A DNA stretch of 43,792 nucleotides from a virus. Location of the stretch: positions 1-43,792 of IMG/VR virus record IMGVR_UViG_3300027608_001459; one strand, given 5' to 3'. Position numbers and translations under genes: made by a program. Below the pieces are notes generated by a model. The model saw only the letters and a list, made by a program, of their open reading frames with translations. It had not been told where the DNA came from and ran no database searches. Below, in pieces: positions 7,623 to 32,438 of this stretch (its first letter is position 1; each line of letters opens with the position of its first letter).

Positions 7623-7625
7623 ATA
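7618..7625 (+). promoter_or_regulatory. Late-promoter-like octamer (TGTAAATA)
   Basis: The TAAATA core resembles the T4 late -10 element TATAAATA. It lies 15 bases before ATG 7641, with GGAG between. It contains the stop codon of the upstream gene, which lowers its weight. Judged together with the other copies of the motif in this window. Confidence 0.25.
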
Positions 7626-7640
7626 TAAGTGGAGCGATAA

Positions 7641-8900: not shown

Positions 8901-8901
8901 G

Positions 8902-8909
8902 ATTAAATA
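8902..8909 (+). promoter_or_regulatory. Late-promoter-like octamer (ATTAAATA)
   Basis: Located 19 bases before ATG 8929, with GGAGC in between as ribosome binding site. It lies just after the upstream stop and is not part of it. Resembles T4 late -10 TATAAATA. Confidence 0.35.
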
Positions 8910-8928
8910 CAAGATACGGAGCAAATAA

Positions 8929-12891: not shown

Positions 12892-13595
12892 TGGAAATTA
12901 TCTTAGCAACACTCTTAATGACACACTTGACAATAGTGTCAGTTACCCTGTATCTACATCGTTGTCAAGCACATAGAGGAGTTGAGTTCCATCCTGCGGT
13001 AAGCCATTTCATGCGATGCTGGCTATGGCTAACAACAGGTATGACCACTAAAGCATGGGTAGCAGTACACCGAAAACATCATCAAAACACAGACGTAGAA
13101 GGCGATCCACATAGTCCACACGTATTTGGCATCAAACGATTACTACTAGGTGGATGGAGTTTGTATCACGAAGCAACAAAAGATCCTAACATGGTTATTA
13201 AATACGGGGCAGGGACTCCTAAAGATCGTGCCGAAGTTTTCTACACTAGATATCACCGCCATGGCATTCTTGTAATGCTGGTTATAGACCTATTGTTATT
13301 TGGGCCATGGGGTTTTCTAGTGTGGGGTGTTCAGATGATATGGATTCCGTTCTGGGCCGCTGGATTCATTAACGGAATCGGCCATTGGTGGGGTTACCGT
13401 AATGGGGAAACTGACGATCACAGTCGCAATGTAAGTCCGGTGGGAATTTTAATCGGTGGCGAGGAACTGCACAATAACCACCACTTAGATCCTGCAAGTC
13501 CTAAGTTTAGCCGTAAATGGTATGAATTTGACATAGGGTGGTTTTATATACGCACTTTAAGTCTGCTAGGTTTAGCAAAAGTACGCACCAGCTAA
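12891..13595 (+). CDS. Membrane fatty-acid (acyl-CoA-type) desaturase
   Basis: ATG 12891 shares its A with the stop of the preceding adhesin gene (TAATG); longer starts would lie inside that gene. The 234-residue product has all three histidine boxes of the di-iron desaturases: HRCQAH (23-28), HRKHH (60-64) and HNNHH (194-198). Hydrophobic segments near residues 3-20 and 125-165 fit membrane-spanning hairpins. The family uses O2 and reducing power to put a double bond (commonly delta-9) into acyl chains at the membrane. At 234 aa it is shorter than the roughly 280-380 aa of most bacterial and eukaryotic members. Its place between two fibre genes is unusual. Substrate cannot be predicted. It may alter host membrane fluidity during infection (inference). 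Confidence 0.88.
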   Translation: MEIILATLLMTHLTIVSVTLYLHRCQAHRGVEFHPAVSHFMRCWLWLTTGMTTKAWVAVHRKHHQNTDVEGDPHSPHVFGIKRLLLGGWSLYHEATKDPNMVIKYGAGTPKDRAEVFYTRYHRHGILVMLVIDLLLFGPWGFLVWGVQMIWIPFWAAGFINGIGHWWGYRNGETDDHSRNVSPVGILIGGEELHNNHHLDPASPKFSRKWYEFDIGWFYIRTLSLLGLAKVRTS

Positions 13596-13598
13596 ATA
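13591..13598 (+). promoter_or_regulatory. Late-promoter-like octamer (GCTAAATA)
   Basis: Ends 19 bases before ATG 13618, with GAGAG between. Overlaps the desaturase stop codon. Same octamer as at 28402. Confidence 0.35.
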
Positions 13599-13617
13599 TA
13601 GTATATGAGAGCGAACT

Positions 13618-14475
13618 ATGGCAATACAACCAATTAATTTAGGAACTTACGCAAACGACGGCACTGGCGACGACTTGCGATCAGCTTTTCAGAAAGTTAA
13701 TGCTAATATTTTAGAATTAGCCAGTACAGTCTACGGAGCAAACGTAGGAGCAGTTCCGCCAACGTCGGGAGTCTATGAAGGTGAACTATGGTGGAGTACT
13801 GTAGAAGGTAGAATGTACATCAAATACGGGACTACATGGGTTGATGCAAGTCCTGCTGACGGATTTGTAGAGTATGACATTTCAGCAGTGGCAACCACCG
13901 GTGGAGTAAACGTTAGACTAAGCGGTACAGACTTATCACAAGATGATATTAAAATTGCAGCTGGTGCAAACATTCTAGTTACTAGAACAGATGCAAATAC
14001 TATTACACTGAGTGCTCCTAGTTTTACTGGAAACGTTACAGGTAACTTAACTGGTAATAGTGCAGGAATTCATACTGGTAGTGTTATCGGAGATACTACT
14101 GGATTTCATACAGGCAGTGTGACAGGCGATGTTACGGGCAATCTTACTGGTTATGTAAACGGCAATGTTACAGGAAATGTAACTGGCAACCTAACTGGTG
14201 ATAGTTTTGGAATTCATACCGGCAGTGTTGTTGGTAATGTAAACGGATCAGTAACTGGCAATGCAGGATCAGTTACCAATGGTGTATATACAACATCAAG
14301 CATTAATGCGTTAGTAGATGTTAATACTGTATCAACTCCTCCAACTTCAGGTCAAGCATTAGTTTGGAATGGAACTAATTGGGTTCCAGGTACAGTTGCT
14401 ACCAGTGGTGGCGGGTTAGATTTTGGAACATTTTCAGCACCGGCTGGATTTACATTAGATTTTGGAACATTTTAA
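13618..14475 (+). CDS. Short-repeat virion fibre protein with adhesin N-terminal module (285 aa)
   Basis: ATG 13618 follows a GAGAGCG element. Residues 9-35 (YANDGTGDDLRSAFQKVNAN) repeat the module of the 132 and 7641 proteins, and GELWWSTVEGRMYIKYGTTW plus VDASP repeats the Trp unit of 7641. Residues about 140-225 are a run of short G-N/D-V-T-G-N-L-T-G units alternating with GIHTGSV or GFHTGSV, likely a beta-solenoid or trimeric stalk. PPTSGQALVWNGTNWVPG follows, then a C-terminus with two LDFGTF copies. This is a typical fibre architecture. No enzymatic motif is visible. Confidence 0.8.
   Translation: MAIQPINLGTYANDGTGDDLRSAFQKVNANILELASTVYGANVGAVPPTSGVYEGELWWSTVEGRMYIKYGTTWVDASPADGFVEYDISAVATTGGVNVRLSGTDLSQDDIKIAAGANILVTRTDANTITLSAPSFTGNVTGNLTGNSAGIHTGSVIGDTTGFHTGSVTGDVTGNLTGYVNGNVTGNVTGNLTGDSFGIHTGSVVGNVNGSVTGNAGSVTNGVYTTSSINALVDVNTVSTPPTSGQALVWNGTNWVPGTVATSGGGLDFGTFSAPAGFTLDFGTF
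14032..14290 (+). repeat. GNVTGNLTG / HTGSV short tandem repeats in a fibre gene
   Basis: Roughly 9-codon units encode variants of GN(V/L)TG; the HTGSV variant appears three times, spaced by GIH or GFH. The repeats are imperfect in DNA, spaced by coding periodicity, and in frame with the CDS. Confidence 0.75.
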
Positions 14476-14491
14476 AGGTTAGGAGATAATA

Positions 14492-15880
14492 ATGGCATTA
14501 CAAATTAGAAGAGGCCTTGAGGCAAATCGATCAGCAGTTACTCCTGACGAAGGCGAATTCTTATACACTACTGATCAAAGTAAATTATATGTTGGAAACG
14601 GTACTACTCCAGGTGGCGTACTTATTACTGGGAGCGGGATTAACAGTGTTGTTGAAGATACCACTCCACAACTAGGAGGAGCATTAGATGTCAATGGATT
14701 TAAAATTGTTAGCACAGGCAATGGCAACATTGAATTAGATCCAGATGGTACTGGTGACGTTATACTACATGGTAATTTAACAATTGATGTCAATGGTAAC
14801 GTTACTAAAACTGGTGAATTAAATATTAGTCCGACTAGTTTTACAACTTTCGGCAGTAATAATGCGTCAATCGACGGTAATGTTTTTATTACTAGAAATA
14901 GTTACTCAACAGGAACGGCCGCCGGATTTACTTTTGCTCAACATCATAACACTGCAGACGCTGTAAATTTTACATTTTATAGAAGTAGAGGAACAGGAAA
15001 TTCCCAAGCAGTGGTTTCAAATGGTGATGACATAGTTGATCTTGCATTTGTTGGTCATGATGGCACTAGTACTCCTATAGGTGCAGGAAATATTTCTTGT
15101 CAAGTAGACGGAACTGTTAGTAGTGGAATAATTCCAGGTAGATTTAGATTTGCATTACACGATGGTGTAACTAGTGGAGCACTAGGATTACGAGCAGTAG
15201 CAGAATTAAATTCAGCGGGCGTATGGAAGGTCAACAGTATACAAAACTACAGCGGCTCTAACTTAACTGTCACAGCTACTACTGTTAACATTGCAGGGGA
15301 CCTACAACTTAACGCTCAGGGCGATTTAAGATTTGCGGATGCAGATTCTAGTAACTATGTAGCATTCCAAGCGGCTGCCACAGTCGCTGCCAACGTGACT
15401 TGGACACTACCTAGCGCAGACGGAACTGTTGGTCAGGTGTTAACAACCAACGGTGGTGGTACATTAAGTTGGTCAACTGCATCGGGAGGATCAGGGCTAG
15501 TATCAAGAGCTAGTCTAACACCAGTAACTACTGCAGCATTAGCCAGCGGAGCAAGTGAAAATCTTATGATTACTGGCTACAAAGGATATGTTTTGTATAA
15601 AATTGAAACTTCGTCAGCAGCTTGGGTAAGATTGTATTCTAGTACTGCGGCCAGGACAGCAGATGCTAGTAGATTAGAAGGAACTGATCCACTACCAGGT
15701 GCAGGTGTTATTGCTGAAATTATATCTACAGGGTCACAGACTATTTTAATAACTCCAGGCGCACTTGGCTTTAGTACAGAAACAACTCCTAGTATACAAA
15801 TACCTTGCACTATAACAAATAAATCTGGAGCAACAACTACTATTACCGTTACATTGACTGTTCTACAAATTGAGGTATAA
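14492..15880 (+). CDS. Virion fibre protein with Mtd-like N-terminal unit (462 aa)
   Basis: ATG 14492 has a good AGGAG ribosome site 8 bases upstream. The N-terminus, MALQIRRGLEANRSAVTPDE then GEFLYTTDQSKLYVGNGTTP, is the R-R-G...P-x-x-G-E-x-x-x-T-T-D-x-x-x-L-(Y/F)-V-G-x-G motif found at the start of many phage tail-fibre and tropism-determinant proteins. A beta-rich body with DVNGFKIVSTGNGNIELDPD follows. GTVGQVLTTNGGGTLSWSTA near residue 310-330 is another widespread fibre unit. The C-terminal 100 residues look like a separate globular domain. Probably part of the adsorption apparatus. The stop is followed 1 base later by the next ATG. Confidence 0.8.
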   Translation: MALQIRRGLEANRSAVTPDEGEFLYTTDQSKLYVGNGTTPGGVLITGSGINSVVEDTTPQLGGALDVNGFKIVSTGNGNIELDPDGTGDVILHGNLTIDVNGNVTKTGELNISPTSFTTFGSNNASIDGNVFITRNSYSTGTAAGFTFAQHHNTADAVNFTFYRSRGTGNSQAVVSNGDDIVDLAFVGHDGTSTPIGAGNISCQVDGTVSSGIIPGRFRFALHDGVTSGALGLRAVAELNSAGVWKVNSIQNYSGSNLTVTATTVNIAGDLQLNAQGDLRFADADSSNYVAFQAAATVAANVTWTLPSADGTVGQVLTTNGGGTLSWSTASGGSGLVSRASLTPVTTAALASGASENLMITGYKGYVLYKIETSSAAWVRLYSSTAARTADASRLEGTDPLPGAGVIAEIISTGSQTILITPGALGFSTETTPSIQIPCTITNKSGATTTITVTLTVLQIEV

Positions 15881-22030: not shown

Positions 22031-22258
22031 ATGCATCCATTAGCAGAAGATTACAGTAAATTAAAAGACGCGGAAATTGAAGCAAGGATTTCGGATCTTG
22101 GCAAAAAGTATTGGCAATCTAGTAACCCAAGTGTGCAAAGTCAAATTGCCATGTTTTTGGATCTGTACAGAGAAGAACTAAGAAGTAGGCAAGCAAAGAT
22201 GTGGCAACAACACCAAACCAAGGCTCCCGAGCTTGACAAACTGATAAACGTCAAGTAA
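22031..22258 (+). CDS. Small conserved phage protein, function unknown (75 aa)
   Basis: Starts 1 base after the previous stop. The product is charged and predicted helical (KLKDAEIEARISDLGKKYWQ, then a second helix IAMFLDLYREELRSRQAKMW). No membrane segment or enzymatic motif. Last gene of the virion module; the TTGACA of the next gene's promoter lies inside its 3' end (22233-22238). Confidence 0.65.
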   Translation: MHPLAEDYSKLKDAEIEARISDLGKKYWQSSNPSVQSQIAMFLDLYREELRSRQAKMWQQHQTKAPELDKLINVK

Positions 22259-22261
22259 AAT
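22233..22261 (+). promoter_or_regulatory. Sigma-70-type promoter of the DnaE-fragment gene, leaderless geometry
   Basis: TTGACA at 22233-22238, 17-base spacer, TAAAAT at 22256-22261, then 6 bases (AGCTAG) and ATG 22268. The -35 is perfect and the -10 has one mismatch. The expected transcription start, 6-8 bases past the -10, falls on the start codon. No Shine-Dalgarno sequence is present. Same geometry as the promoters at 23769 and 31576. Confidence 0.65.
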
Positions 22262-22267
22262 AGCTAG

Positions 22268-22762
22268 ATGCTATTAGACAAATTCAGTAATCCTGTATTT
22301 CAAGAACAAGATATTTTTAACATGCTCTACAAAGGGCAAATAGAATATCTTGATCAAATTATCATCGATCCAAGTATAGACACTAGTCAATTTGAAAAAT
22401 TTGTTAAACTAAATGTAAGCACAGAGTTAGACATATCCAAAGTTGAGTTTGATCAAATTTGTCAAACAGATTGGTTTATGCCCGATGAATATAAAACAAT
22501 GGACATTGAAACATTCATTGTAGATCGCAGTCCTAAAGAAAATCTCACACGCATTGTAGAAGAATTAGAAGAATATAAAGAACGTAATATGTTAGATCTG
22601 TTACGTTGGCTCAAATATTTTGTAGATACTTGTAGATCTAATAATTTAGTATGGGGTGTGGGTAGAGGAAGTTCAGTAGCCAGTTATGTACTATACATTA
22701 TAGGTGTACACAAAATAGACAGTATAAAATATAATTTAGACTGGCATGAATTCCTGAGATAA
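22268..22762 (+). CDS. DNA polymerase III alpha (DnaE)-like fragment protein (164 aa)
   Basis: Residues 126-164 (LVWGVGRGSSVASYVLYIIG, then VHKIDSIKYNLDWHEFLR) match the conserved DnaE stretch V-G-x-G-R-G-S-x-x-(A/G)-S...G-(I/V)-x-x-(I/V)-D-x-(I/L)-x-Y-x-L-x-x-(E)-(R)-F-L. In full DnaE proteins the catalytic Asp pair of the palm follows about ten residues later; here the protein stops right after EFLR, so it cannot polymerise by itself. The sequence after the stop shows no continuation in another frame. The N-terminal 120 residues are helical and not recognised. It may be a decoy, a nucleotide- or clamp-binding piece, or a relic. Expression from its own strong promoter argues for use. No Shine-Dalgarno precedes ATG 22268. 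Confidence 0.7.
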   Translation: MLLDKFSNPVFQEQDIFNMLYKGQIEYLDQIIIDPSIDTSQFEKFVKLNVSTELDISKVEFDQICQTDWFMPDEYKTMDIETFIVDRSPKENLTRIVEELEEYKERNMLDLLRWLKYFVDTCRSNNLVWGVGRGSSVASYVLYIIGVHKIDSIKYNLDWHEFLR

Positions 22763-22787
22763 GTAATATACCGTAAGGAGAACTATT

Positions 22788-23003
22788 ATGGCAATGAAAG
22801 AAGCAGCAAGAAAAGTGCATAAAACTATGCAAGGTAAAGAAATTGACCTTGACAAACTACGTATTCGCAACGAATCTACTCTAGCAGTAGGTAATGCTAA
22901 AATGAACGCTCGTGGCGATGAGTTAGGTCCAAATGGAAAAATTGTTCGTAAACGCGAAGAAGCAAGTACAGAGTACCATACAGATAGTTCAGATTTAAGA
23001 TAA
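22788..23003 (+). CDS. Small conserved phage protein, function unknown (71 aa)
   Basis: ATG 22788 has a strong ribosome site (AAGGAG, 8 bases upstream). The product is very charged: Lys/Arg-rich at the N-terminus (MKEAARKVHKTMQGKEIDLD) with a central NAKMNARGDELGPNGKIVRK segment. No Cys pair or membrane segment. Its position between the DnaE fragment and GroES suggests early or middle expression. Confidence 0.65.
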   Translation: MAMKEAARKVHKTMQGKEIDLDKLRIRNESTLAVGNAKMNARGDELGPNGKIVRKREEASTEYHTDSSDLR

Positions 23004-23011
23004 GAGGTTTT

Positions 23012-23392
23012 ATGTCAGAGATTTTTAAAAATCCAGGCATTAATATTAATGCTTGGAAGGTATCCACTTTGAAGCCATTAACTGATAATGTAATAGTTAC
23101 TGATATGAATTTCAGTGAACAAAAAAGCAACGGCGGCATTATCATACAAAGTGACAATGGCAAAGCACACGGCGTTCATCCTAGATGGGCTAAAATATAT
23201 GCAGTGGGCCCGGACCAAAAAGATGTATCCGTGGGGCAATGGATTTTGATGGAACACGGTCGTTGGACTCGAGGTATTAAGATCGAAGACGATGAAGGTG
23301 AAAAAATCATTAGAAAGGTTGATACTAAATGTATGCTAATGGTATCAGACGAGGCGCCACCAGATGACGCATGGATTGGAAGAGAACTATGA
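23012..23392 (+). CDS. GroES-type co-chaperonin (T4 gp31-like role)
   Basis: The 126-residue protein starts at ATG 23012 with GAGG upstream. Residues 18-32 (STLKPLTDNVIVTDM) match the first GroES strand (LRPLxDRVxV). Residues 34-50 (FSEQKSNGGIIIQSDNG) match the mobile loop, whose G-G-I-x-hydrophobic tripeptide docks onto GroEL. WAKIYAVGPDQKDVSVGQWI matches the family's G-x-(V/I)-x-A-V-G-x-G...V-x-V-G-D core. It would cap host GroEL, as T4 gp31 does for capsid folding. It has about 30 more residues than typical GroES. The stop overlaps the next start (ATGA). Confidence 0.88.
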   Translation: MSEIFKNPGININAWKVSTLKPLTDNVIVTDMNFSEQKSNGGIIIQSDNGKAHGVHPRWAKIYAVGPDQKDVSVGQWILMEHGRWTRGIKIEDDEGEKIIRKVDTKCMLMVSDEAPPDDAWIGREL

Positions 23393-23757
23393 CTAACACA
23401 TTTAGAGACCAGGAAAAGTTCATGCGGGCCTGTGATCAAACAGTGGGCTCATTTAATAAAGATCAATATAAACTATATTTGGATCTCATGGATGAAGAAT
23501 GGAAGGAGCTCAAAGCAGCACTGCTAATGGAAAATCGTGTAGAGCAGTTAGATGCACTACTTGATTTTATTGTTGTAACAACAGGTGCTATTCACTCAGC
23601 AGGATTTGATGCAGAAGGTGCCTGGAAAGAAGTTATGGCTACTAACTTTGCTAAAATCGACAAAGAAACTGGCAAGGTTCGTAAACGTGAGGACGGTAAG
23701 GTATTGAAACCCGTAGGGTGGGTGCCGCCGGAGTTGGCTCCTTATGTGAGCAAGTAA
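23389..23757 (+). CDS. MazG-like all-alpha NTP pyrophosphohydrolase
   Basis: ATG 23389 overlaps the GroES stop (ATGA); the longer start at 23371 lies inside groES. The 122 residues carry the family's metal-binding pattern: E36-E37-x-x-E40 (DEEWKEL), then E52-x-x-D55-x-x-x-D59 (EQLDALLDF) and a later helix with N and K (ATNFAKIDKETGKV). These enzymes hydrolyse NTP or dNTP, or (p)ppGpp-related nucleotides, to the monophosphate and PPi. Marine T4-like phages commonly carry one. Substrate is not evident. Transcription ends at the hairpin 4 bases downstream. Confidence 0.8.
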   Translation: MTNTFRDQEKFMRACDQTVGSFNKDQYKLYLDLMDEEWKELKAALLMENRVEQLDALLDFIVVTTGAIHSAGFDAEGAWKEVMATNFAKIDKETGKVRKREDGKVLKPVGWVPPELAPYVSK

Positions 23758-23760
23758 CTC

Positions 23761-23788
23761 AAAGGGTCTTGACAGACCCTTTCTTTTT
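23761..23788 (+). terminator. Rho-independent terminator after the MazG-like gene
   Basis: A perfect 9-bp stem AAAGGGTCT / AGACCCTTT (23761-23769 with 23774-23782), loop TGAC, followed by CTTTTTC. The -35 hexamer of the next promoter (TTGACA, 23769-23774) is built from the loop and stem ends. Confidence 0.9.
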
Positions 23789-23797
23789 CTCTATAAT
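23769..23797 (+). promoter_or_regulatory. Consensus sigma-70 promoter of the cytidylyltransferase gene, leaderless geometry
   Basis: TTGACA (23769-23774), exactly 17 bases, TATAAT (23792-23797), then AAGAGA and ATG 23804. Both hexamers are perfect. The predicted start point is at or within 2 bases of the ATG, so the mRNA would have almost no leader. The -35 lies in the terminator hairpin of the previous operon. Confidence 0.85.
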
Positions 23798-23803
23798 AAG
23801 AGA

Positions 23804-24226
23804 ATGAAAATAGGATTCACTTGCTCAACCTTTGACCTGTTCCACGCAGGTCATATCATGATGCTTAAAGAAGCACGAACACAATGCGACTATTTAATAG
23901 TTGGCCTACAAACAGACCCTACTATTGATCGTCCTGAAAAGAATAAACCCATTCAAGGTGTGTTTGAAAGATACGAACAGCTCAAGGCCTGCAAATACAT
24001 TGACGAAATACTAGTGTATGCCACTGAAGAAGATTTACTAAACATCTTGCTTTCTTATCCTATTAATGTTAGAATACTAGGACAAGAGTATATGACTAAA
24101 TCGTTTACAGGTGAGCACTTAGATATGCAAGTGTATTACAATCATAGGAAACACGGTTTTTCAACAACAGAATTACGTCAGCGTGTAGTTGACGCAGAAA
24201 GGAACAAAAATGGAAATACAACCTAA
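23804..24226 (+). CDS. Glycerol-3-phosphate cytidylyltransferase-like nucleotidyltransferase (TagD family)
   Basis: 140 residues with the full cytidylyltransferase signature: GFTCSTFDLFHAGHIMML with HAGH at 14-17, RYEQL at 56-60, and FSTTELRQRV at 119-128 (the R-x-x-G-(I/F)-S-T-T motif; here HRKHGFSTTE). The family transfers CMP from CTP to a phosphorylated alcohol, giving CDP-glycerol-type products. Size matches TagD (about 130 aa). It may serve surface-polymer or lipid-head-group modification of the host; the acceptor cannot be predicted. It is expressed from its own consensus promoter and overlaps the next gene by 17 bases. Confidence 0.82.
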   Translation: MKIGFTCSTFDLFHAGHIMMLKEARTQCDYLIVGLQTDPTIDRPEKNKPIQGVFERYEQLKACKYIDEILVYATEEDLLNILLSYPINVRILGQEYMTKSFTGEHLDMQVYYNHRKHGFSTTELRQRVVDAERNKNGNTT

Positions 24227-24377
24227 GGATACAAGCAAGGGACATTTTTATGTTAGCCTTGTAAAGAGTTTTTTACGCATTGTAGCAGGTGGCAATCTAG
24301 TAATAGGAAATCTGTTCTGGGCAGGTACTTTATTAATTCTTGCAGAAGTGCTAGGTATTGTAGAGGAACTAGTATGA
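24210..24377 (+). CDS. Small single-pass or hairpin membrane protein, unknown (55 aa)
   Basis: ATG 24210 is preferred over 24189 because AAAGGA lies 7 bases upstream. It overlaps the cytidylyltransferase end by 17 bases in another frame. The sequence has a short polar N-terminus, then about 35 hydrophobic residues (IVAGGNLVIGNLFWAGTLLI then LAEVLGIVEELV) that could span the membrane once or as a hairpin. The stop overlaps the next ATG (ATGA). Function unknown. Confidence 0.65.
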   Translation: MEIQPKDTSKGHFYVSLVKSFLRIVAGGNLVIGNLFWAGTLLILAEVLGIVEELV

Positions 24378-24598
24378 AAGAACGGATTAAGGAACTGGCA
24401 ATAGAATGCTATAATCCATACTCAAACTTTGATCACGAAAAGTTTGCAGAACTAATCATTAAAGATATCTTTAATGTTATGAATGACAAAAAAACCTACA
24501 ACAGATGTACCTACACTAATCATGACCTAGATAAGGCACAATGTGTAGTGCAAGAAGTTATTAAATGCGTTAACGAACACTTTGGAACTAAACTATGA
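24374..24598 (+). CDS. Small helical phage protein, unknown (74 aa)
   Basis: Linked by ATGA overlaps on both sides, so it is part of the cytidylyltransferase-to-clamp-loader operon. Contains E-R-I-K-E-L-A and F-D-H-E-K-F-A-E-L-I-I-K-D, a pattern common in small phage proteins of unknown role. Three Cys residues (12, 45, 57) are not arranged as an obvious zinc site. Confidence 0.6.
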   Translation: MKERIKELAIECYNPYSNFDHEKFAELIIKDIFNVMNDKKTYNRCTYTNHDLDKAQCVVQEVIKCVNEHFGTKL

Positions 24599-25509
24599 AA
24601 GAACTATGGGTTGAAAAATACCGTCCTGCAAAGGTTGACGGTTATGTGTTCAGAGATAACCATCAGAAAGAACAAGTACAAAGTTGGATTAAACAAGGCA
24701 CGATTCCACACTTGTTGTTTAGCGGCAATGCAGGTATTGGTAAAACAACACTGGCTAAGATCCTGTTTAACGAACTTGAAATTCAAGACTTAGACATTCT
24801 AGAGATCAATGCGTCACGTACTAACTCAGTTGAAGACGTTCGTGATAAGATTGTTAATTTTGTACAAATGATTCCATTTGGAGACTTTAAGGTAGTATTA
24901 CTAGATGAAGCAGATTACTTATCACCTAACGCACAGGCCGCACTACGTGGAGTCATGGAAGAATACCATACGACCGCTCGTTTTATTCTTACTTGTAACT
25001 ATCCTAATAGGATTATCCCTGCTCTCCATAGTCGTTGTCAAGGCTTCCACATTGAACGAGTTGACGTTAATGAATTTACTGCTCGTGTGGCTACTATTCT
25101 CGTTGAAGAGACCGTAGAGTTTGATCTTGACACACTAGATACATTTGTTAAAGCAACTTACCCAGACCTACGTAAATGTATTAATACTGTACAGATGAAC
25201 AGCCTAGAAGGCAAGCTACACACGCCAGAGAAAGGCGACACTGGAGAAGCTGACTATAAGATTGAAATGGTTGAGCTGTTTAAGAAAGGCAAGATTAGCG
25301 AAGCACGTAAACTAGTGTGCGGACAGGCTCGACCAGAAGAGATGGAAGAAATCTATCGCTGGTTGTATGACAATGTTGCAATCTTTGGAGAAGAACCTGT
25401 ACAAGAGAAAGCAATTCTCATTATTAAGCAAGGGCTAGTAGATCATACATTAGTTAGTGATCCAGAAATTAATCTGGCTGCTACATTAATTAGATTAAGT
25501 CACATATAA
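24595..25509 (+). CDS. Sliding-clamp loader ATPase subunit (T4 gp44 / RFC small-subunit type)
   Basis: 304 residues, close to T4 gp44 (319). Starts LWVEKYRP, the RFC-family N-terminal box. Walker A GNAGIGKT at 44-51, Walker B VVLLDEAD with D104-E105, sensor-1 TCNYPNRI near 133-140, and the trans-acting SRC motif at 146-148. It uses ATP to open the sliding clamp and load it on primer-template DNA. In T4 the partner gp62 follows directly; here the next genes are oxygenase-like and neither gp62 nor a clamp is recognisable in the window. ATGA overlap upstream and TAATG overlap downstream. Confidence 0.93.
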   Translation: MKELWVEKYRPAKVDGYVFRDNHQKEQVQSWIKQGTIPHLLFSGNAGIGKTTLAKILFNELEIQDLDILEINASRTNSVEDVRDKIVNFVQMIPFGDFKVVLLDEADYLSPNAQAALRGVMEEYHTTARFILTCNYPNRIIPALHSRCQGFHIERVDVNEFTARVATILVEETVEFDLDTLDTFVKATYPDLRKCINTVQMNSLEGKLHTPEKGDTGEADYKIEMVELFKKGKISEARKLVCGQARPEEMEEIYRWLYDNVAIFGEEPVQEKAILIIKQGLVDHTLVSDPEINLAATLIRLSHI

Positions 25510-26096
25510 TGAATAACGATTACGTTAAAGTTTATCCGTTGGATATTAACTTAGAAAAAATTAGAGAAAGCTGTGACATATTAAATCAATACATTAACTC
25601 TAATTTTGATCAAGTAGAGGGTGCAATAGCAACTGGGCCGCTAACTACACGAGTGTTTAATCATTATAATTTATTGTTATTTCCCTATGATGAATTTCAT
25701 AAGCTATATCAAGAAATTTGTAGAGTATTTTCAATAGTGTGTAATACTGATAAAAATTATTATATACAATGTTGGTTAAACTACTGCACTTATGAGCAGT
25801 TTATTGACTGGCATTCACACTGGGGTTCTCAAGATAACACATGGCACGGATTTGTTTGTGTTGATAGCGAAGAGAGCATAACTAGTTATAGGTTACCAAG
25901 CGGGGAAGAATTTGATGTACCTAGTAAAAACGGTACTTTAGTTATTAGTAAATCAGACGGAGATGTTCATCGTACATATCCGTGGCCGCATGTAGATAGG
26001 CCTAGGATTACTATTGCATTTGATTGTGTTCCAGAGGATCGAATACAATGGGGTGTAAATCATTGGATACCCGTTGCTAAACTAAATCATTTATAA
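25509..26096 (+). CDS. Putative Fe(II)/2-oxoglutarate oxygenase-like protein (195 aa)
   Basis: ATG 25509 overlaps the clamp-loader stop (TAATG). The core FIDWHSHWGSQDNTWHGFVC (His102, His104) and then GTLVISKSDGDVHRTYPWPH with His154 and RPRITIAFDC (Arg166) follows the H-x-(D/H)...H...R layout of double-stranded beta-helix dioxygenases. The first pair is H-x-H rather than the usual H-x-D, so activity is uncertain. Substrate unknown. It forms a three-gene set with the next oxygenase-like gene and the nitrilase-family gene. Confidence 0.55.
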   Translation: MNNDYVKVYPLDINLEKIRESCDILNQYINSNFDQVEGAIATGPLTTRVFNHYNLLLFPYDEFHKLYQEICRVFSIVCNTDKNYYIQCWLNYCTYEQFIDWHSHWGSQDNTWHGFVCVDSEESITSYRLPSGEEFDVPSKNGTLVISKSDGDVHRTYPWPHVDRPRITIAFDCVPEDRIQWGVNHWIPVAKLNHL

Positions 26097-26100
26097 ATTT

Positions 26101-26703
26101 ATGAATTTAAAAGGTTATACTATTGAAAAAACTTTTAGTTTATTTCCAACATGCGTAATAGCGTTTGATCTATCAGGCCACACCAGCATTAGTACATTGT
26201 TAGAAGTGATTGATGAAACTAAACAACTGTGCCGACCTCACGGACTATTAGAAAATAGTATTAGTAGTTTTGGTATAATTCCTATTCTAGACGATCCTAG
26301 ATTATTAAATTTAAAAAATACTATGCAACTCTGCATATTTGACTATGCCAGTATTGCAGGATTAGAAAATATCTATATTACTAACAATTGGTACAATATT
26401 ATGGGTGCCGGTGCAAGAGTAAATGCACATCGTCACTACGGAAGTACAGTAAGTGGTGCATTCTACCCATTATTAACATCAGGTAGCAGTAATTTGTTTT
26501 TTAATTCTCCTATTGCACAGTGCAAAATGAACGACATTGCGACAACTCAAGGGGAAAACAATGTATTTTCTGCACTTGAAACAGAAATAGATATTAAAGA
26601 GAATCACCTATACCTATTTCCAAGTTGGCTAGATCATGGAGTTAATGTTAATACAACTTCAAATCGAATTGTAATAAGTTTTAATACGGATAGAAAAAAA
26701 TGA
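26101..26703 (+). CDS. 2OG-Fe(II) oxygenase-like protein, TIGR02466/2OG-FeII_Oxy_5 type (200 aa)
   Basis: NNWYNIMGAGARVNAHRHYG then STVSGAFYPLL (His110, His112), and LYLFPSWLDHGVNV with His179 followed by NRIVISFN (Arg189), are the two hallmark blocks of this phage-rich oxygenase-like family. About 200 aa is its normal length. Expected cofactors are Fe(II) and 2-oxoglutarate; the target is unknown for the family. No Shine-Dalgarno is visible before ATG 26101, and a TATAAA stands at 26092. ATGA overlap with the nitrilase-family gene. Confidence 0.72.
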   Translation: MNLKGYTIEKTFSLFPTCVIAFDLSGHTSISTLLEVIDETKQLCRPHGLLENSISSFGIIPILDDPRLLNLKNTMQLCIFDYASIAGLENIYITNNWYNIMGAGARVNAHRHYGSTVSGAFYPLLTSGSSNLFFNSPIAQCKMNDIATTQGENNVFSALETEIDIKENHLYLFPSWLDHGVNVNTTSNRIVISFNTDRKK

Positions 26704-27530
26704 AAAATGTAAGATTTGCAGGTGCACAAATACCTTGCTCTAAAATATTAAAAAATAATGTACAAACAATTAAAACTGCCATTGACTGGGCAGTTGATAA
26801 TCAAGTTGATTATTTAATAACTCCAGAAGGGTCACTTAGCGGATATATTAAAGATTTTGATGTGCCAGAATTAGTTGATGCACTTACAGAAATTGAACAA
26901 TATGCTGCTAACAAAGTTGGCCTATGTTTAGGAACTCTATGGACCGAAAATGAAAATGACATAGGAGTTAGACGAAACCAAATTAGATTTTATTCAAAGG
27001 ATGGAATTCTCAATCGTACCGTTGATAAAACTATTATTACCCCCTACGATGTTATGCTTGGCATTGCTCCATCTTCAGAGCACATTATAGTTCCATTCTT
27101 AGATGAACAATTAGACATGCATGACATACCGCTCATAGCAGGTGCATTTATCTGTGCTGATTTTTATGGAAAGAAAGAATATCCTGATCTAACACGCATG
27201 TCGTTCAATGACGGAGCCCATATTTTTTTACATGCAACTAACGCAGAAAGAGATGTTGGAAGAATGTATGATAGTGTGATGAGTGATTGGCATAATGCAC
27301 ATTTAAGAAACATTTCTTATCTTGCTGGGATTCCTGTTATTAGTGTAGATAACAGTATAAAAATGGACGGCACTGAGTGGAACGGTCCTACTAGCAGTCA
27401 AAGTGGAGTGCTAATTGGAGGAGAATGGGTTGTAACTGTGCCAAGAGTTGGAACACATTATTTTTATTATGATTTCCCATTAGACAAGCTAATACATATG
27501 GATTGGCCAAACGGTATTGGGAAAAACTAA
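26700..27530 (+). CDS. Nitrilase-superfamily carbon-nitrogen hydrolase (276 aa)
   Basis: The catalytic triad is complete: Glu43 in TPEGSLSGY, Lys110 in TVDKTIITPYD, and Cys152 in AGAFICADFYG. Length is typical (260-300). The superfamily cleaves C-N bonds in nitriles, amides, ureas or N-carbamoyl compounds, using the cysteine as nucleophile. It overlaps the oxygenase-like gene by ATGA and ends at a bidirectional terminator, so it closes an operon starting at 23804. A nitrogen-salvage or metabolite-modifying role with the upstream oxygenases is inferred. The subfamily could not be decided. Confidence 0.82.
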   Translation: MKNVRFAGAQIPCSKILKNNVQTIKTAIDWAVDNQVDYLITPEGSLSGYIKDFDVPELVDALTEIEQYAANKVGLCLGTLWTENENDIGVRRNQIRFYSKDGILNRTVDKTIITPYDVMLGIAPSSEHIIVPFLDEQLDMHDIPLIAGAFICADFYGKKEYPDLTRMSFNDGAHIFLHATNAERDVGRMYDSVMSDWHNAHLRNISYLAGIPVISVDNSIKMDGTEWNGPTSSQSGVLIGGEWVVTVPRVGTHYFYYDFPLDKLIHMDWPNGIGKN

Positions 27531-27553
27531 AAAGGGGACTAGGTCCCCTTTTT
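27530..27553. terminator. Bidirectional rho-independent terminator between nitrilase-family gene and phoH
   Basis: Stem AAAAGGGGAC / GTCCCCTTTT with loop TAG, flanked by A-run and T-run so it works on both strands. It separates convergent genes: the + strand nitrilase-family gene and the - strand phoH. Confidence 0.93.
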
Positions 27554-27555
27554 CT

Positions 27556-28278
27556 TTAATCGTCACCGTAAAGGTCTAACACCTCCTTAACAGCATTATG
27601 GCGTTCAATGTCGTGACTATCAAAACGCACAATATCAATGTGAGATAACTTACGTCCTTCAATCTTACCGATGAAGTCTATAAGTCCATTGTCTTTCAAT
27701 CTGTCTGCTTGGTTCAAATCACCAGTTACTACCATTTTAGAGTTTTCTCCTAGGCGAGTTAGTAGCATTTTCATCTGGTTCTGAGTTGCATTCTGCATTT
27801 CGTCCGCAATAATATAAGCATTCTTAAATGTGCGGCCGCGCATATATGCGAGTGGGCTGATTTCAATAATGCCTTCTTCTAGCATCGATTCGATTTCCTT
27901 AGTTAGATAATATTCTCCTAATACATCGAAGATTGGTCTTGTCCATGGCGCCATTTTTTCATTTAGCGTACCAGGCAAGAATCCTAAATCCTCATCAACA
28001 GAAACGGCAGGTCTAGTGACTATAATCCTATCAACTTTACCTTCTTGATAAAGTTTGATTCCCATTTGAACAGCCAACAAGGTCTTGCCCGTACCAGCAG
28101 GTCCGACGGCAAACAAGATATTCTTGTTGTCATCGTTGAGCTTGAATAGATAAGATTCTTGGTGTTTATTGCGAGGTAACAGGTTTACACGCTGTTTTTT
28201 CGCAGGTTTGTGTGCATGGAAATCAATTACATTCACATCTGAAGTAAAACGTTTTTTCACTCGATTGTTTTTACTCAT
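27556..28278 (-). CDS. phoH: PhoH-like P-loop ATPase
   Basis: Only minus-strand gene. The start is at 28278 (MSKNNRVKKRF): GGGAG lies 7 bases upstream of it, while the longer start at 28311 has no ribosome site and sits in a leader hairpin. 240 residues; Walker A GPAGTGKT at 59-66, VTRPAVSVDEDLGFLPG (PhoH signature), and Walker B AYIIADEMQN followed by TRLGENSKMVVTGDLNQAD. This is the single-domain PhoH form widespread in marine phages. It is related to RNA helicase/ATPase domains; its role in infection is unsettled, with links to phosphate stress in some hosts. An imperfect hairpin lies in the leader. Confidence 0.92.
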   Translation of the reverse strand: MSKNNRVKKRFTSDVNVIDFHAHKPAKKQRVNLLPRNKHQESYLFKLNDDNKNILFAVGPAGTGKTLLAVQMGIKLYQEGKVDRIIVTRPAVSVDEDLGFLPGTLNEKMAPWTRPIFDVLGEYYLTKEIESMLEEGIIEISPLAYMRGRTFKNAYIIADEMQNATQNQMKMLLTRLGENSKMVVTGDLNQADRLKDNGLIDFIGKIEGRKLSHIDIVRFDSHDIERHNAVKEVLDLYGDD

Positions 28279-28304
28279 TAAGTATCTCCCACTTTTAGTA
28301 AAGC

Positions 28305-28343
28305 AGGACATGTAGCGACCGCCTCAGTAACTACAGAGGTCCT
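28305..28343 (-). promoter_or_regulatory. Imperfect hairpin in the phoH 5' leader
   Basis: On the minus strand the order is AGGAC, CTC, TGTAG, a 15-base apical stretch, CTACA, T, GTCCT: two nested 5-bp helices with an internal asymmetry of 3 against 1 bases. A CCTC/GAGG alternative pairing is also possible. It lies 27-65 bases before the phoH start codon, upstream of the GGGAG site. No T-run follows, so it is not a terminator. It could regulate translation or mRNA stability. No known riboswitch family was recognised. Confidence 0.45.
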
Positions 28344-28401
28344 ACACTATTACTTAGTCATTTTGGACTAGAATAAACTAGCAACATATGATTTAAAACC
28401 T

Positions 28402-28409
28402 GCTAAATA
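28402..28409 (+). promoter_or_regulatory. Late-promoter-like octamer (GCTAAATA)
   Basis: Lies 25 bases before ATG 28435 in non-coding DNA and is the same octamer as at 13591. It would drive the 28435-30425 gene run. It does not overlap any stop codon. Confidence 0.4.
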
Positions 28410-28434
28410 AGAGTAGAACCTTCTAGGAATAACT

Positions 28435-28995
28435 ATGCGCGATATACTTGACGTTATTAAAAACGTAGAATCAATTTACAGCACTAATTCTAGCCTAAGC
28501 ACACTTAAAGACTTTGAGCGTGTTCTAGACGAGATGAATATGTACGTATATAAAAACTGGGCCGATGGGGAACTAGCTTCAGGACCTAAAGTTGATCGTC
28601 ACTGGGTAACTGCTAGCTTTATGTGGCCACGTGAGAAGATGCCTGATCCTATGGCAGCTAAACGATTAATTGACTACGGCTGTCGTGTGCGCTACGAAAA
28701 AACAAATTTGTTAGAACCAAGGCAAGTTAAGACTCCAGACGACTTCCGTCCTGGCACACGCAAAGGCAAGTTAGATCAAACACCAGTATGGTTAGTGGAA
28801 ATTACCATGCCTAAGACTCTAGTTCAAGATATTTTTAACGGGTATATGACCAAGATGAAAGAAAGTATGGGCATTGGTCGTAATGCAAATGTTGATTCAG
28901 CTCCGCCTCAGGCAGCAGAACAAGCGGCGGTGGCAGCACCTGCAGGCGGCATGCCAGCAGCACCTGCAGGAGGAGAACCTAATGTCGCAGCTTAA
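28435..28995 (+). CDS. Conserved phage protein of unknown function (186 aa)
   Basis: First gene after the divergent phoH. Acidic helical N-terminus (MRDILDVIKNVESIY); the core has a Trp-rich block (WVTASFMWPREKMPDPMAAK) and PDDFRPGTRKGKLDQTPVWL, followed by VEITMPK. The C-terminal 35 residues are Ala/Pro/Gly-rich and low-complexity. No enzyme motif was recognised. It overlaps the next gene by 14 bases. Expression timing is probably late, from the octamer upstream. Confidence 0.7.
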   Translation: MRDILDVIKNVESIYSTNSSLSTLKDFERVLDEMNMYVYKNWADGELASGPKVDRHWVTASFMWPREKMPDPMAAKRLIDYGCRVRYEKTNLLEPRQVKTPDDFRPGTRKGKLDQTPVWLVEITMPKTLVQDIFNGYMTKMKESMGIGRNANVDSAPPQAAEQAAVAAPAGGMPAAPAGGEPNVAA

Positions 28996-29716
28996 TGAAG
29001 GATTACTAGCAGGTGATTTACGTATGCTAGTAGATAATATTTTTGAAGTTGACAGTTTTTCTAGCAAAATGGGAGATGACAAGGACATAGTTGTTCTAGC
29101 ATTTACTGTAAAGAGCCAAGAGCCTGCTGACGATCTAGTGACCTTTATGGAAAATGGTTACGACTTTGTACTAGATGCAGATGCTAGTCCGGGAGAACTT
29201 AGTGACGGCAAATACAAAGTGTTTGTTGAAATTGAACGTAACCGTCGCATACACGAACAAATTTTAGAACTGCTCAATGGTGTTGGACTACTAGCAGAAG
29301 TAGATAATTTTAAATTTAGATATCACAAGAGTTTTAATAGTGTTGATGCAGATGAACAGAATTTAAACGAAATGATTCCAAAGACTAACGATGCTTACGA
29401 AATTACTATTCAAGAAAATCATATGAATAACTTTAGTAACTTCTTTGGCCGTAGCTACTTAGAACAAGTAAGTGTTGATCAAGAAGATATTGTATTCCAA
29501 AAGAAATATGCAGAACCATTGCGTATGCGCATTTCAGACTTTGGAACAAAAGCCGAAGTCTATGATAATATCGTAGGTCCAATTATGTTAGAAGGTAGCT
29601 CAATGAGTGAAATCATGTACTTTACCAAGTACGTAGGTAACTACAACATTACTAAAATTGGAAATACATTTGTATTTGAGAACGGCAAGTATGCCGTAGC
29701 GTTGGAAAAAGTCTAA
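28982..29716 (+). CDS. Conserved phage protein of unknown function (244 aa)
   Basis: The start at 28982 (MSQLNEGLLAGDL) is chosen because GGAGGAG lies 7-13 bases upstream; upstream ATGs in frame would overlap the previous gene by over 100 bases. Contains LNEGLLAGDLRMLVDNIFEV at the N-terminus, FVLDADASPGELSDGKYKVF and FKFRYHKSFNSVDADEQNLN. It appears soluble and mixed alpha/beta. Possibly a structural or assembly protein, but nothing diagnostic was seen. TAATG overlap with the next gene. Confidence 0.7.
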   Translation: MSQLNEGLLAGDLRMLVDNIFEVDSFSSKMGDDKDIVVLAFTVKSQEPADDLVTFMENGYDFVLDADASPGELSDGKYKVFVEIERNRRIHEQILELLNGVGLLAEVDNFKFRYHKSFNSVDADEQNLNEMIPKTNDAYEITIQENHMNNFSNFFGRSYLEQVSVDQEDIVFQKKYAEPLRMRISDFGTKAEVYDNIVGPIMLEGSSMSEIMYFTKYVGNYNITKIGNTFVFENGKYAVALEKV

Positions 29717-30165
29717 TGTGGATAGTTAGTCTAATACCAGAAAATATATTTGTTATAATTTATTATGCACTAGTGGGTGCCGGTATTACACTATACATTG
29801 TTAGCAAGTTGGTAACATGGATTCCCATGATAACGCAATGGAAGTTGCCAATGGAACTGGTAGGTGTTCTAGCACTGGCAGCAGGTGCTTATTTTATGGG
29901 CGGCTACGGTGTGCAGAAAGCGTGGCTAGCTAGAGTAGCAGAGTTAGAAGAAAAAGTTAAAGCAGCAGAAGCAAAGTCTGCTGTGGTCAATACTGTAGTG
30001 CAAGAAAAGATTGTTTATAAAACTAAGATAGTTAAAGAAGTACAAATAAAAATTGAAGAGCGCATTAAAGAAGTTGAAAAAATTATCGATGCTGAATGTA
30101 AGGTTGATCCTATAGCGATACAAATTTTAAACGATGCGGCAGCTCCTGTAGGAGAAGCTAAATGA
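29716..30165 (+). CDS. Inner-membrane spanin-like protein (Rz-type)
   Basis: 149 residues. Two hydrophobic segments near residues 8-30 and 45-62, then a long charged coiled coil (residues about 72-125: VAELEEKVKAAEAKSAV through VQIKIEERIKEVEKIID). The next gene is a small lipoprotein overlapping by ATGA. A membrane-anchored periplasmic coiled coil paired with a lipoprotein is the arrangement of two-component spanins, which fuse inner and outer membranes in the last lysis step. Classical Rz has one membrane segment; two are seen here. Implies a Gram-negative host. Confidence 0.65.
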   Translation: MWIVSLIPENIFVIIYYALVGAGITLYIVSKLVTWIPMITQWKLPMELVGVLALAAGAYFMGGYGVQKAWLARVAELEEKVKAAEAKSAVVNTVVQEKIVYKTKIVKEVQIKIEERIKEVEKIIDAECKVDPIAIQILNDAAAPVGEAK

Positions 30166-30425
30166 AATTATTGATTGTGATAGCAGCATTTGCGCTTGTA
30201 GGATGTAGCACTACTGTACCAGTAGTTATGAAGTTCCCCGATGTTCCTAAAGAGTTATTAGAAGCTTGCCCTAATTTAAAACTAGCAGACAACAGTCCTA
30301 AGCTAAGTGCAATGCTAACTACAGTAACTCAAAATTACGCATTGTATAAAAATTGTCAAATTAAACAAGAAGGCTGGGTTGAATGGTATAAAAGCCAAAA
30401 ACAGATATTTGAAAGTGTGAAATAA
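30162..30425 (+). CDS. Outer-membrane spanin-like lipoprotein (Rz1-type)
   Basis: 87 residues, starting with a lipoprotein signal MKLLIVIAAFALVGCS; lipobox LVGC with Cys15 as the lipidated residue. The mature part is Pro- and Lys-containing (VVMKFPDVPKELLEACPNLK). It overlaps the inner-membrane partner by 4 bases. The size and order fit an o-spanin. It contains two further Cys residues (36 and 64) that could form disulfides. Function from context and lipobox; not sequence identity. Confidence 0.7.
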   Translation: MKLLIVIAAFALVGCSTTVPVVMKFPDVPKELLEACPNLKLADNSPKLSAMLTTVTQNYALYKNCQIKQEGWVEWYKSQKQIFESVK

Positions 30426-30428
30426 ATA
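30421..30428 (+). promoter_or_regulatory. Late-promoter-like octamer (AATAAATA)
   Basis: Ends 24 bases before ATG 30453. Overlaps the stop of the lipoprotein gene. Would drive the 30453-31579 membrane-protein genes. Confidence 0.35.
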
Positions 30429-30452
30429 GTAGTACATAAAGGGTCAGGCAAT

Positions 30453-30683
30453 ATGATGGGTTATCTGTTAAGTGACAGCATTAACGGCACAGTAAGCAGC
30501 AAACGAGTTGTAACGTTGTTGGCATTTATACTGTGTGCTATCAGCATGATGTCTGAACAATTTTTTAACTACAAGCTCAATTCAACAGCATTTGAAAGCA
30601 TGATGTATATTGTTATTGCTGGATTGGGATTTACTGCTAGTGAGAAGTTTGCACTTAGCAAAAAGGAAAAAGAAAATGGGTGA
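30453..30683 (+). CDS. Small two-segment membrane protein, holin candidate (76 aa)
   Basis: MMGYLLSDSINGTVSSKRVV then two hydrophobic segments (about 21-35 and 50-65), a charged C-terminus KKEKENG. Small size, two membrane helices, a charged tail and its place just after the spanins are typical of holins. Alternative start 30456 loses one residue. The ribosome site is weak (AAAGGG, 12 bases upstream). The holin call is by context only. Confidence 0.55.
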   Translation: MMGYLLSDSINGTVSSKRVVTLLAFILCAISMMSEQFFNYKLNSTAFESMMYIVIAGLGFTASEKFALSKKEKENG

Positions 30684-30963
30684 TCAAAAACTGATGAAAT
30701 ATCTGCTACTGTTAATAGTATTTCCAATACTATTAGCAATGTTTAGTGGTGATAGATTTCGATATCCTTGTCAAGATCCAGACAATTGGGACAAAGATTT
30801 TTGTAAATTACCAAAATGTGACGTTACTCGCACATGCCCAGAGCATATTTTTAAAGGTCAACGTGACCCAAGATTAGGACCACCAAAAGATGAATCGACT
30901 AAAACAATTTCTGCGCCCGCTGCTGGAGCGCCTAACACACAAGGAGCCAACTGTGGAAAATAA
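30676..30963 (+). CDS. Small Cys-containing membrane-anchored protein, unknown (95 aa)
   Basis: ATG 30676 has AAGGA 8 bases upstream and overlaps the previous gene by 8 bases; the in-frame ATG 30610 is inside that gene. A single hydrophobic segment (LMKYLLLLIVFPILLAMF) at about 6-23 acts as anchor or signal. It is followed by a Cys-rich stretch with five Cys, four of them at CQDPDNWDKDFCKLPKCDVT and RTC, likely exposed to the periplasm. Pro/Ala-rich C-terminus. Probably part of the lysis or membrane region; function unknown. Confidence 0.6.
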   Translation: MGDQKLMKYLLLLIVFPILLAMFSGDRFRYPCQDPDNWDKDFCKLPKCDVTRTCPEHIFKGQRDPRLGPPKDESTKTISAPAAGAPNTQGANCGK

Positions 30964-31579
30964 TCAACCTAACATCATGTACACTGAAGAACAGCTAATG
31001 GTTAGACTAAAGTTCTTCATTGGAATTTGTTTAGCATTAACGCTATTTGGCATTGTGTTTGTTGTACTATATTCGTTAATTTTTGTCACCCAACCATTAA
31101 ATGCAATTAGTCCTATTGATCAAAAGTTTTTTGAATTGATTATCCCTATTGCTACATTCTTAACTGGTACACTGTCAGGTATTATGTTAGCAGGCGGGGA
31201 CAAAGACGCACAGAAGCAAGCTCTGGCAGCGGCTAATGCAGGATGGCCTAAGCCACCTAGCCCAGCACCAATAGGAGGATTTGGAAATGGCGCAACAATA
31301 CCAGGAACAGGATTTGCGAGCGGGACTCCAGCATTTGGCCAACCGTCAGCAGGAGGCTTCGGTGCCCCAAGCAGTGGTTTTGGTTCAACACCATTTGGCG
31401 GGAACGGCGCAAGCAGCTTTGGTAGCAATACAGGATTTGGAGCGACAGCGGCTACACCATTCGGAGCCTCAGCAGTTGGTGCAGCCGGAGGATTTGCGGC
31501 AGCAACAATGATGCCTACTATGGCCAAACCAATGCCTAGCAGACCACCGTTTGACGAAGACTTTCCTGAATTAGATTGA
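30953..31579 (+). CDS. Membrane protein with FG-rich low-complexity tail, GTG start (208 aa)
   Basis: GTG 30953 is preferred because a strong AAGGAG site stands 6 bases upstream (30941-30946) and the overlap with the previous gene is only 11 bases; ATG 30890 has no such site and ATG 30977 is a weaker option. Two hydrophobic segments (about 20-45 and 60-80, ending [11 protein letters not shown]). Then a tail of some 100 residues rich in Gly, Phe, Ala, Ser and Pro with repeated G-F-G, A-F-G, P-F-G units, ending in acidic DEDFPELD. Function unknown; position suggests the lysis or membrane module. The FG tail is probably disordered. Confidence 0.65.
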
Positions 31580-31604
31580 CCTTTTAATTCTAGTGCTATA
31601 TAAT
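31576..31604 (+). promoter_or_regulatory. Sigma-70-type promoter of dnaJ, leaderless geometry
   Basis: TTGACC (31576-31581), exactly 17 bases, TATAAT (31599-31604), then AGTACT and ATG 31611. One mismatch in the -35. The predicted start point falls on the ATG. The -10 sits inside an inverted repeat (31592-31610). Confidence 0.75.
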
Positions 31605-31610
31605 AGTACT
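31592..31610. other. Inverted repeat over the dnaJ promoter -10
   Basis: AGTGCTAT, 3-base centre ATA, ATAGTACT: 7 of 8 positions complementary (the eighth would be G-U in RNA). It covers the -10 element and the bases up to the ATG, the usual place for an operator. It could also be chance in AT-rich DNA. Confidence 0.35.
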
Positions 31611-32438
31611 ATGGACTATTATCAAATATTAGGTGTAGCTGAAAACGCAAGTCAGGATGATATCAAAAAGGCCTACAAAAAGTTGGCCATGAAGAATCAT
31701 CCTGATCGCGGCGGCGACACACAAAAATTTCAAGAAATATCGCAAGCGTATGACACGTTAGGCGACGAGCAAAAACGACAACAGTATAACGCTCAAAAAA
31801 ATAACCCTTTTATTCACGCACGTAGCGGCAATCAAGGATTCCCAGATATAAACGATATCTTTGGAGCAACATTTGGATTTGGTCCAGGATTTGCAGGGTT
31901 TCATCAACAACGTCGTAATAGAGATTTATCTATTCGCGTTACTATCACATTCAAGCAGAGTTATCTAGGTACACAAATTGAAGCTAGATTTAACACTCCC
32001 GCTGGACGAGCACAAACTGTAGTAGTAGATATACCTCCAGGTGTACAAAGCGGACAAACTATTCGTTATGCTGACCTAGGTGACGATGCTTTTCCAAACA
32101 TGCCTCGTGGCAATTTGAACGTTACTGTGATGGTAGAAGCTGATCCAGAATGGGAAAGACGTGGTAACGATCTATTCACAACTGTGACTGTGTCAGCATT
32201 AGAAGCAATGACTGGGTGCATGAAAGAAGTAAACTGTTTAGATGGCGGAATTATGCCACTAAAGCTACGTCCTGGCATTAGACATGGGTCAGAGTTTGCC
32301 AGTGGTGGACGTGGATTTAGAGATATTAATTCAGGTAGACTAGGCAGTTTAATTGTTATATTAAACGTAGACATTCCGGCAGTAACAGATCCCCAATTAG
32401 TGCAGGAATTAAAGACATTATATGCTAAACTACAATAA
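31611..32438 (+). CDS. dnaJ: DnaJ-type Hsp40 co-chaperone (class II, no zinc finger)
   Basis: The start is set to ATG 31611 because MDYYQILGV is the normal J-domain N-terminus and the promoter geometry points here; ATG 31593 lies inside the -10 region. 275 residues: J domain 1-65 with the HPD triad at 30-32, a G/F-rich linker at about 80-105 ([19 protein letters not shown]), then the two beta C-terminal substrate-binding domains ([17 protein letters not shown]). The CxxCxGxG zinc repeats are absent, so it is CbpA/DjlB-like. It would stimulate host DnaK ATPase. clpA follows 19 bases downstream. Confidence 0.92.

Follow-up and report, generated by a model that had tools for sequence, protein, structure and literature searches.

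Predicted leaderless mRNAs from host-type promoters nested in neighbouring features of an uncultured large phage and its relatives

The locus and its three promoters

The stretch of DNA analysed here (the window) is a 43,792-base IMG/VR fragment, IMGVR_UViG_3300027608_001459, which constitutes the entire record and derives from an uncultured large tailed phage. It is low in guanine plus cytosine (GC; about 40%) and carries T4-type baseplate and fibre genes as well as genes for GroES, MazG, PhoH, DnaJ and ClpA. Three of its genes, encoding a DnaE-like protein, a nucleotidyltransferase and a DnaJ-like protein, begin directly downstream of sigma-70-type promoters, termed P1, P2 and P3, at a distance that predicts leaderless mRNAs. 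The features concerned, including the open reading frame (ORF) upstream of the dnaE-like gene, are the following:

22031-22258: ORF upstream of the dnaE-like gene, with P1 nested in its 3' end; it ends with the stop codon TAA (22256-22258), which lies within the -10 element
22233..22261, + strand: promoter P1 of the dnaE-like gene, sigma-70-type; -35 TTGACA (22233-22238), 17-bp spacer, -10 TAAAAT (22256-22261)
22268..22762, + strand: DnaE-like stand-alone protein, 164 amino acids; phrog_11127 DNA polymerase (E-value 3e-39); predicted leaderless, expected +1 at the A of ATG
23761..23788, + strand: intrinsic terminator AAAGGGTCT-TGAC-AGACCCTTT, then CTTTTT, 3' of the MazG-like gene; hairpin of -11.8 kcal/mol
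23769..23797, + strand: promoter P2, sigma-70-type; -35 TTGACA (23769-23774), 17-bp spacer, -10 TATAAT (23792-23797)
23804..24226, + strand: nucleotidyltransferase (RfaE2/TagD-like), 140 amino acids; phrog_7878 (E-value 1e-36), matched from residue 1; predicted leaderless
31576..31604, + strand: promoter P3, sigma-70-type; -35 TTGACC (31576-31581), 17-bp spacer, -10 TATAAT (31599-31604)
31611..32438, + strand: DnaJ-like protein, 275 amino acids; phrog_14336, matched from residue 1; predicted leaderless

Scanned on both strands, the window contains the pattern TTGACN-17-TANAAT-6-ATG at 22233-22270, 23769-23806 and 31576-31613, all on the + strand and with the hexamers, 17-base-pair (bp) spacers and 6-nucleotide (nt) gaps exactly as an earlier note on this DNA had described them, and no fourth copy was found. 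That note had proposed a comparison with shuffled sequence and a scan of related genomes. The pattern did not occur in any of 100 dinucleotide shuffles of the window, and with a gap of 6-7 nt it was found 71 times in 15 large related phage records, compared with 2 matches of the reversed pattern. About 62 of the 71 matches are distinct after removal of records sharing DNA, and a control gap of 11-12 nt gave 9 matches in the same 15 records, including one that is a 6-nt promoter as well. The three genes lack a Shine-Dalgarno (SD) sequence, as had been claimed. The accompanying statement that most neighbouring genes possess one was overstated since a clear SD (GGAG, AGGA or GAGG) precedes 13 of the 28 window genes examined, about half, and any SD-like motif precedes 17 of the 28.

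Distance between promoter and start codon in relatives

The relatives comprise 3.7 Mb of sequence from many metagenomes, including a few records 200-370 kb in length, and for each TTGACN-17-TANAAT promoter in them the distance was taken from the -10 element to the first ATG opening an ORF. The distances are bimodal: 70 promoters lie at 6 nt, 24 at 7 nt and eight at 3, 5, 8 or 9 nt, none is found at 10-16 nt, and then a leadered class follows that is spread over 17-47 nt. The same bimodal pattern is obtained in a genome-wide scan. The modal start of sigma-70-dependent transcription is located about 7 nt after the -10 element, so that a 6-nt gap places the A of the ATG at the modal +1. The empty range of 10-16 nt is expected if the ATG either coincides with +1, leaving no leader, or is distant enough to accommodate an SD. 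Moreover, the codon opening the ORF at 6-7 nt is ATG in 103 cases, TTG in one and GTG in none, and this near-exclusive use of ATG is as expected if leaderless initiation is favoured. The arrangement extends further than the present phages. Among the matches listed for viral contigs at large, an ATG placed 6 nt after the promoter opens an ORF of at least 60 amino acids in 69%, compared with 37% at 11 nt and a background of 30%, which shows that predicted sigma-70 promoters placed for leaderless transcription are common among environmental viruses, beyond this phage group.

From spacing, conservation, ATG-only starts and constraint at synonymous sites, the three window genes are very probably leaderless, and this part of the earlier note stands. 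We consider it highly likely that these elements are promoters for the host RNA polymerase (sigma-70-type) giving leaderless mRNAs, and that the 5' ends in these phages come in two formats, of which the leaderless one occurs with both promoter classes, the second class being the late promoters described below. A host-type holoenzyme would begin the transcript with the A of the ATG, located 7 nt beyond the -10 element, and ribosomes would initiate by recognition of the 5'-terminal AUG in a 70S-type manner without an SD. The -35 element, spacer and -10 element are folded into the end of the preceding gene, either its stop codon or its coding tail, or into an intrinsic terminator. Nested in neighbouring features in this way, the promoters would add regulation at almost no cost in extra DNA.

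Several observations weigh against this interpretation. The sequences compared are related, so that the counts do not represent independent events. Conservation is partial for two of the three genes: the promoter is found at 5-8 nt in 40 of 83 distinct upstream regions of dnaJ, and the leaderless position of P2 is kept in 11 of 61 distinct upstream regions of the nucleotidyltransferase gene (score of at least 10; 12 at a looser cut-off). Furthermore, read-through from upstream could also yield leadered copies of the transcripts.

Promoters nested in coding tails, stop codons and a terminator

P1 shows the strongest conservation. In all 67 distinct upstream regions of the dnaE-like gene the promoter is placed 5-8 nt from the ATG and an SD is absent, the encoded proteins being mostly 40-60% identical. 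The -35 element is encoded by the codons CTT-GAC in the upstream coding tail in 66 of 66 cases, CTT accounting for 0.15 of leucine and GAC for 0.36 of aspartate codon usage, and the stop codon of the upstream gene, which lies within the -10 element, is TAA in 66 of 66. Because CTT-GAC and TAA are fixed while all six leucine codons occur at the next leucine position, the coding tail points to selection acting on the DNA and not on the protein alone.

The gene downstream of P1 had been described as a DnaE-like fragment. Its DnaE-like character is upheld by the profile match; it is a conserved stand-alone ORF (phrog_11127, 171 amino acids) and not debris, and it is present as a separate gene also in the phages PA5oct, XacN1 and SCTP-2. 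A broken polymerase gene is thereby ruled out as its identity. No relatives of the protein were found in GTDB genomes.

At P2 the promoter is fused to the terminator at 23761..23788, the loop and inner stem of which contain the -35 element and the T-tract of which forms the spacer. Such terminator-promoter elements recur in relatives with differing stems. Among 69 promoters picked by a T-run in the spacer only, since a set picked by hairpin would be circular, 31 have a stem of at least 6, whereas swapping the left arms between sequences leaves a mean of 5.5 (maximum 10). In a 21-sequence alignment that was chosen for hairpins, for which reason the arm-swap test is the fairer one, the covariation score is 0.232 compared with 0.085 after shuffling, and double changes occur at 4 of 9 pairs. 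Among the three window sites, a hairpin and T-tract with covarying pairing fused to the promoter is found only at 23769. The element would probably end the upstream transcript immediately before the start of the predicted leaderless transcript. In this fusion the terminator loop supplies the -35 element and the T-tract the spacer, which would make it a compact and insulated element.

The -35 element of P3 contains the stop codon TGA (31577-31579) of the upstream gene. The J domain of the DnaJ-like protein starts at the N-terminus and relatives align from residue 1. Many dnaJ relatives without the leaderless promoter (e.g., L067, L064 and L099) have a hairpin such as GGTATAGTATAATTACTACTATACC with a T-run, in which TATAAT is located inside the stem-loop and no SD precedes the ATG; this is perhaps another promoter-terminator fusion.

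The close packing of these elements could be read differently, namely that the promoters are real and act mainly as internal boosters, that translation proceeds chiefly by coupling on read-through mRNA and that compact packing incidentally produced the 6-nt spacing. The upstream stop codon is only 9 nt from the dnaE-like ATG and two of the promoters overlap upstream stop codons, as such coupling would suggest. We regard this as quite unlikely in view of the exact mode at 6-7 nt next to an empty range of 10-16 nt, the restriction to ATG and the terminator before the nucleotidyltransferase gene, which should block read-through.

Late promoters and the proposed early-gene class

The earlier note had further suggested that leaderlessness marks an early class of host-takeover genes, which are preferentially translated once host ribosomes are altered. 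Features of the relatives agree with parts of this proposal. The promoters are strong and of the sigma-70 type, and several downstream genes in relatives function in replication and repair, the sigma-70 leaderless set including primase, a RecB-type exonuclease, a UV-endonuclease-like protein, a 5'-3' exonuclease, DnaJ and the DnaE-like protein. A phage-encoded ribosomal protein bS21, which might alter ribosomes, is found in 10 of the 15 large relatives. A temporal class of leaderless mRNAs has a precedent in phage phiYS40, though for middle and late genes (PMC3594737).

The late promoters of the relatives speak against an early class. They were assigned solely by motif enrichment, three relatives of 270-365 kb showing a strong excess of the T4-type late core TAAATA 5' of their genes. 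The distance from TAAATA to the ATG is again bimodal, with 60 genes at 4-8 nt, of which a part may reflect chance or nested ORFs, few at 9-14 nt and many at 15-33 nt. In each of the three genomes, a late promoter in leaderless position precedes the gene of the terminase large subunit (a profile match confirmed one terminase copy, and visual alignment of the same motifs the other two), and such promoters are also found at the tail tube protein and other virion proteins. In nearer relatives of the window the late-type promoters mostly have leaders.

Judged by promoter type, leaderlessness is thus not confined to one expression class, since both the sigma-70-type and the TAAATA late-type promoters have members. 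In addition, many promoters of the same sigma-70 type in the same phages carry long leaders, and no gene for the initiation factor IF3 was found in the 15 large relatives. An early class as the meaning of leaderlessness is therefore not supported, and we consider it very unlikely. The sigma-70 leaderless genes mostly function in replication and repair or encode chaperones, in agreement with early or middle expression that is set by promoter type and not by the missing leader. Timing probably follows promoter type, with leader length as a separate property, and from these motif distances leaderlessness would be a 5'-end format common to both promoter classes and not an early-gene label.

The weakest alternative, a chance TATAAT near an ATG in AT-rich intergenic DNA, for which the low GC content of about 40% could be cited, is refuted by the empty shuffles, the 71 matches against 2 reversed and the conservation across clades, and its probability is negligible.

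In the window itself, TAAATA late-type motifs are located 5' of tail-fibre and baseplate genes (7600-14500 and 39449), mostly with SD-like leaders. With regard to bS21, the few loci found for comparison place the protein of one relative closest to those of gammaproteobacteria (48-50%), which is a weak hint to the host of that relative and not of the window phage. The bS21-encoding phages described from lakes have Bacteroidetes as predicted hosts; they and the present group are probably different phages because the promoters here are of the TTGACA/TATAAT type.

Cultured relatives and switching between formats

Phages PA5oct and XacN1 are cultured relatives with predicted leaderless genes and are directly testable. 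The gene order of PA5oct, a Pseudomonas phage, resembles that of the window (dnaE-like, GroES, PhoH on the minus strand, ClpA). XacN1 has six pattern matches, all at 7 nt. As two sites recur in the terminal duplication, these amount to four distinct sites, and the annotated starts at all four sites checked equal the predicted ATG. In PA5oct the annotated start of the RecB-type exonuclease is the predicted leaderless ATG, and at another match in this phage no start is annotated. Gene callers that depend on an SD can misplace leaderless starts.

The RecB-type exonuclease is predicted to be leaderless at 6-7 nt in 7 of the 9 environmental records carrying the gene, the eighth having a distance of 9 nt and the ninth (G014) no promoter. 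A similar TATAAT is present at the exonuclease gene of the enterobacterial phages RaK2, 121Q and BF and of the Xanthomonas phage XbC2, but there the ATG is more distant with GGAG in between, which suggests that this gene may have switched between the leaderless and the SD format. A tentative and rather unlikely extension of the two-format interpretation would be a genome-wide zero-leader programme at host-type and phage late promoters, which is read by phage-modified ribosomes, for example with the phage's own bS21, and in which leaderless and SD formats are swapped at the same promoter upon host change.

As a separate observation, the cyanophage gene PSSM2_156 (T4-GC 152, beside gp45; P-SSM2 134575-134612, L695) has a 6-nt leaderless-type promoter that is conserved in 15 of 61 marine relatives; this gene differs from the RecB exonuclease.

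Comparison with known leaderless systems

In bacteria, "TA-led" leaderless genes have been described that lack an SD and contain a TATAAT-like -10 element about 10-12 bp before the start codon (Zheng et al. 2011; PMC3160421). Those genes are found in cellular genomes, while here jumbo phages are concerned, the -35 element is also conserved and the promoters are nested in terminators and coding tails. The lytic Thermus phage phiYS40 produces many leaderless middle and late mRNAs as a temporal class, accompanied by an increase in IF2 and a decrease in IF3 (PMC3594737). In the present group, by contrast, predicted leaderlessness spans promoter classes. Scanning phiYS40 and lambda with the strict sigma-70 pattern gave no match in either phage. 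The lambda cI gene is transcribed from PRM, a sigma-70 promoter with +1 at the AUG; it is a single regulatory gene of a temperate phage and differs in this respect from the recurrent use predicted here. T4-type late promoters are of the form TATAAATA. The TAAATA core is common to these and to the late promoters of the relatives, a subset of which lies 4-8 nt from the ATG and is predicted to be leaderless. Within a partial coverage of the literature, no reports of leaderless mRNAs in the present phage group or of leaderless T4-type late promoters were found.

Leaderless phage mRNAs as such are already known from phiYS40 and lambda cI, and the signal described here is real and well conserved. 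They are best known from these few cases, and the present group would use them repeatedly if mapped 5' ends agree. Single examples would then persist through protein divergence down to 40-60% identity.

Other observations in relatives

Each of the three long relatives encodes a tRNA with anticodon CTA, designated "Pyl" by ARAGORN (L412:10196-10271 in G002, L423:7515-7589 in G007 and L443:12503-12576 in G005). TAG stop codons are rare in the clade (25 of 783 long ORFs), and the CTA-anticodon tRNA could be an amber-suppressor tRNA. All three long relatives contain tRNA gene clusters, and two relatives have tmRNA genes with unusual tag peptides (L423:876-1270 and L443:18267-18669). In L461 (G007) the bS21 gene adjoins genes for ClpX, an Hsp20-like and a ClpS-like protein, which were named by eye, and the window encodes ClpA; the phage may steer host proteolysis.

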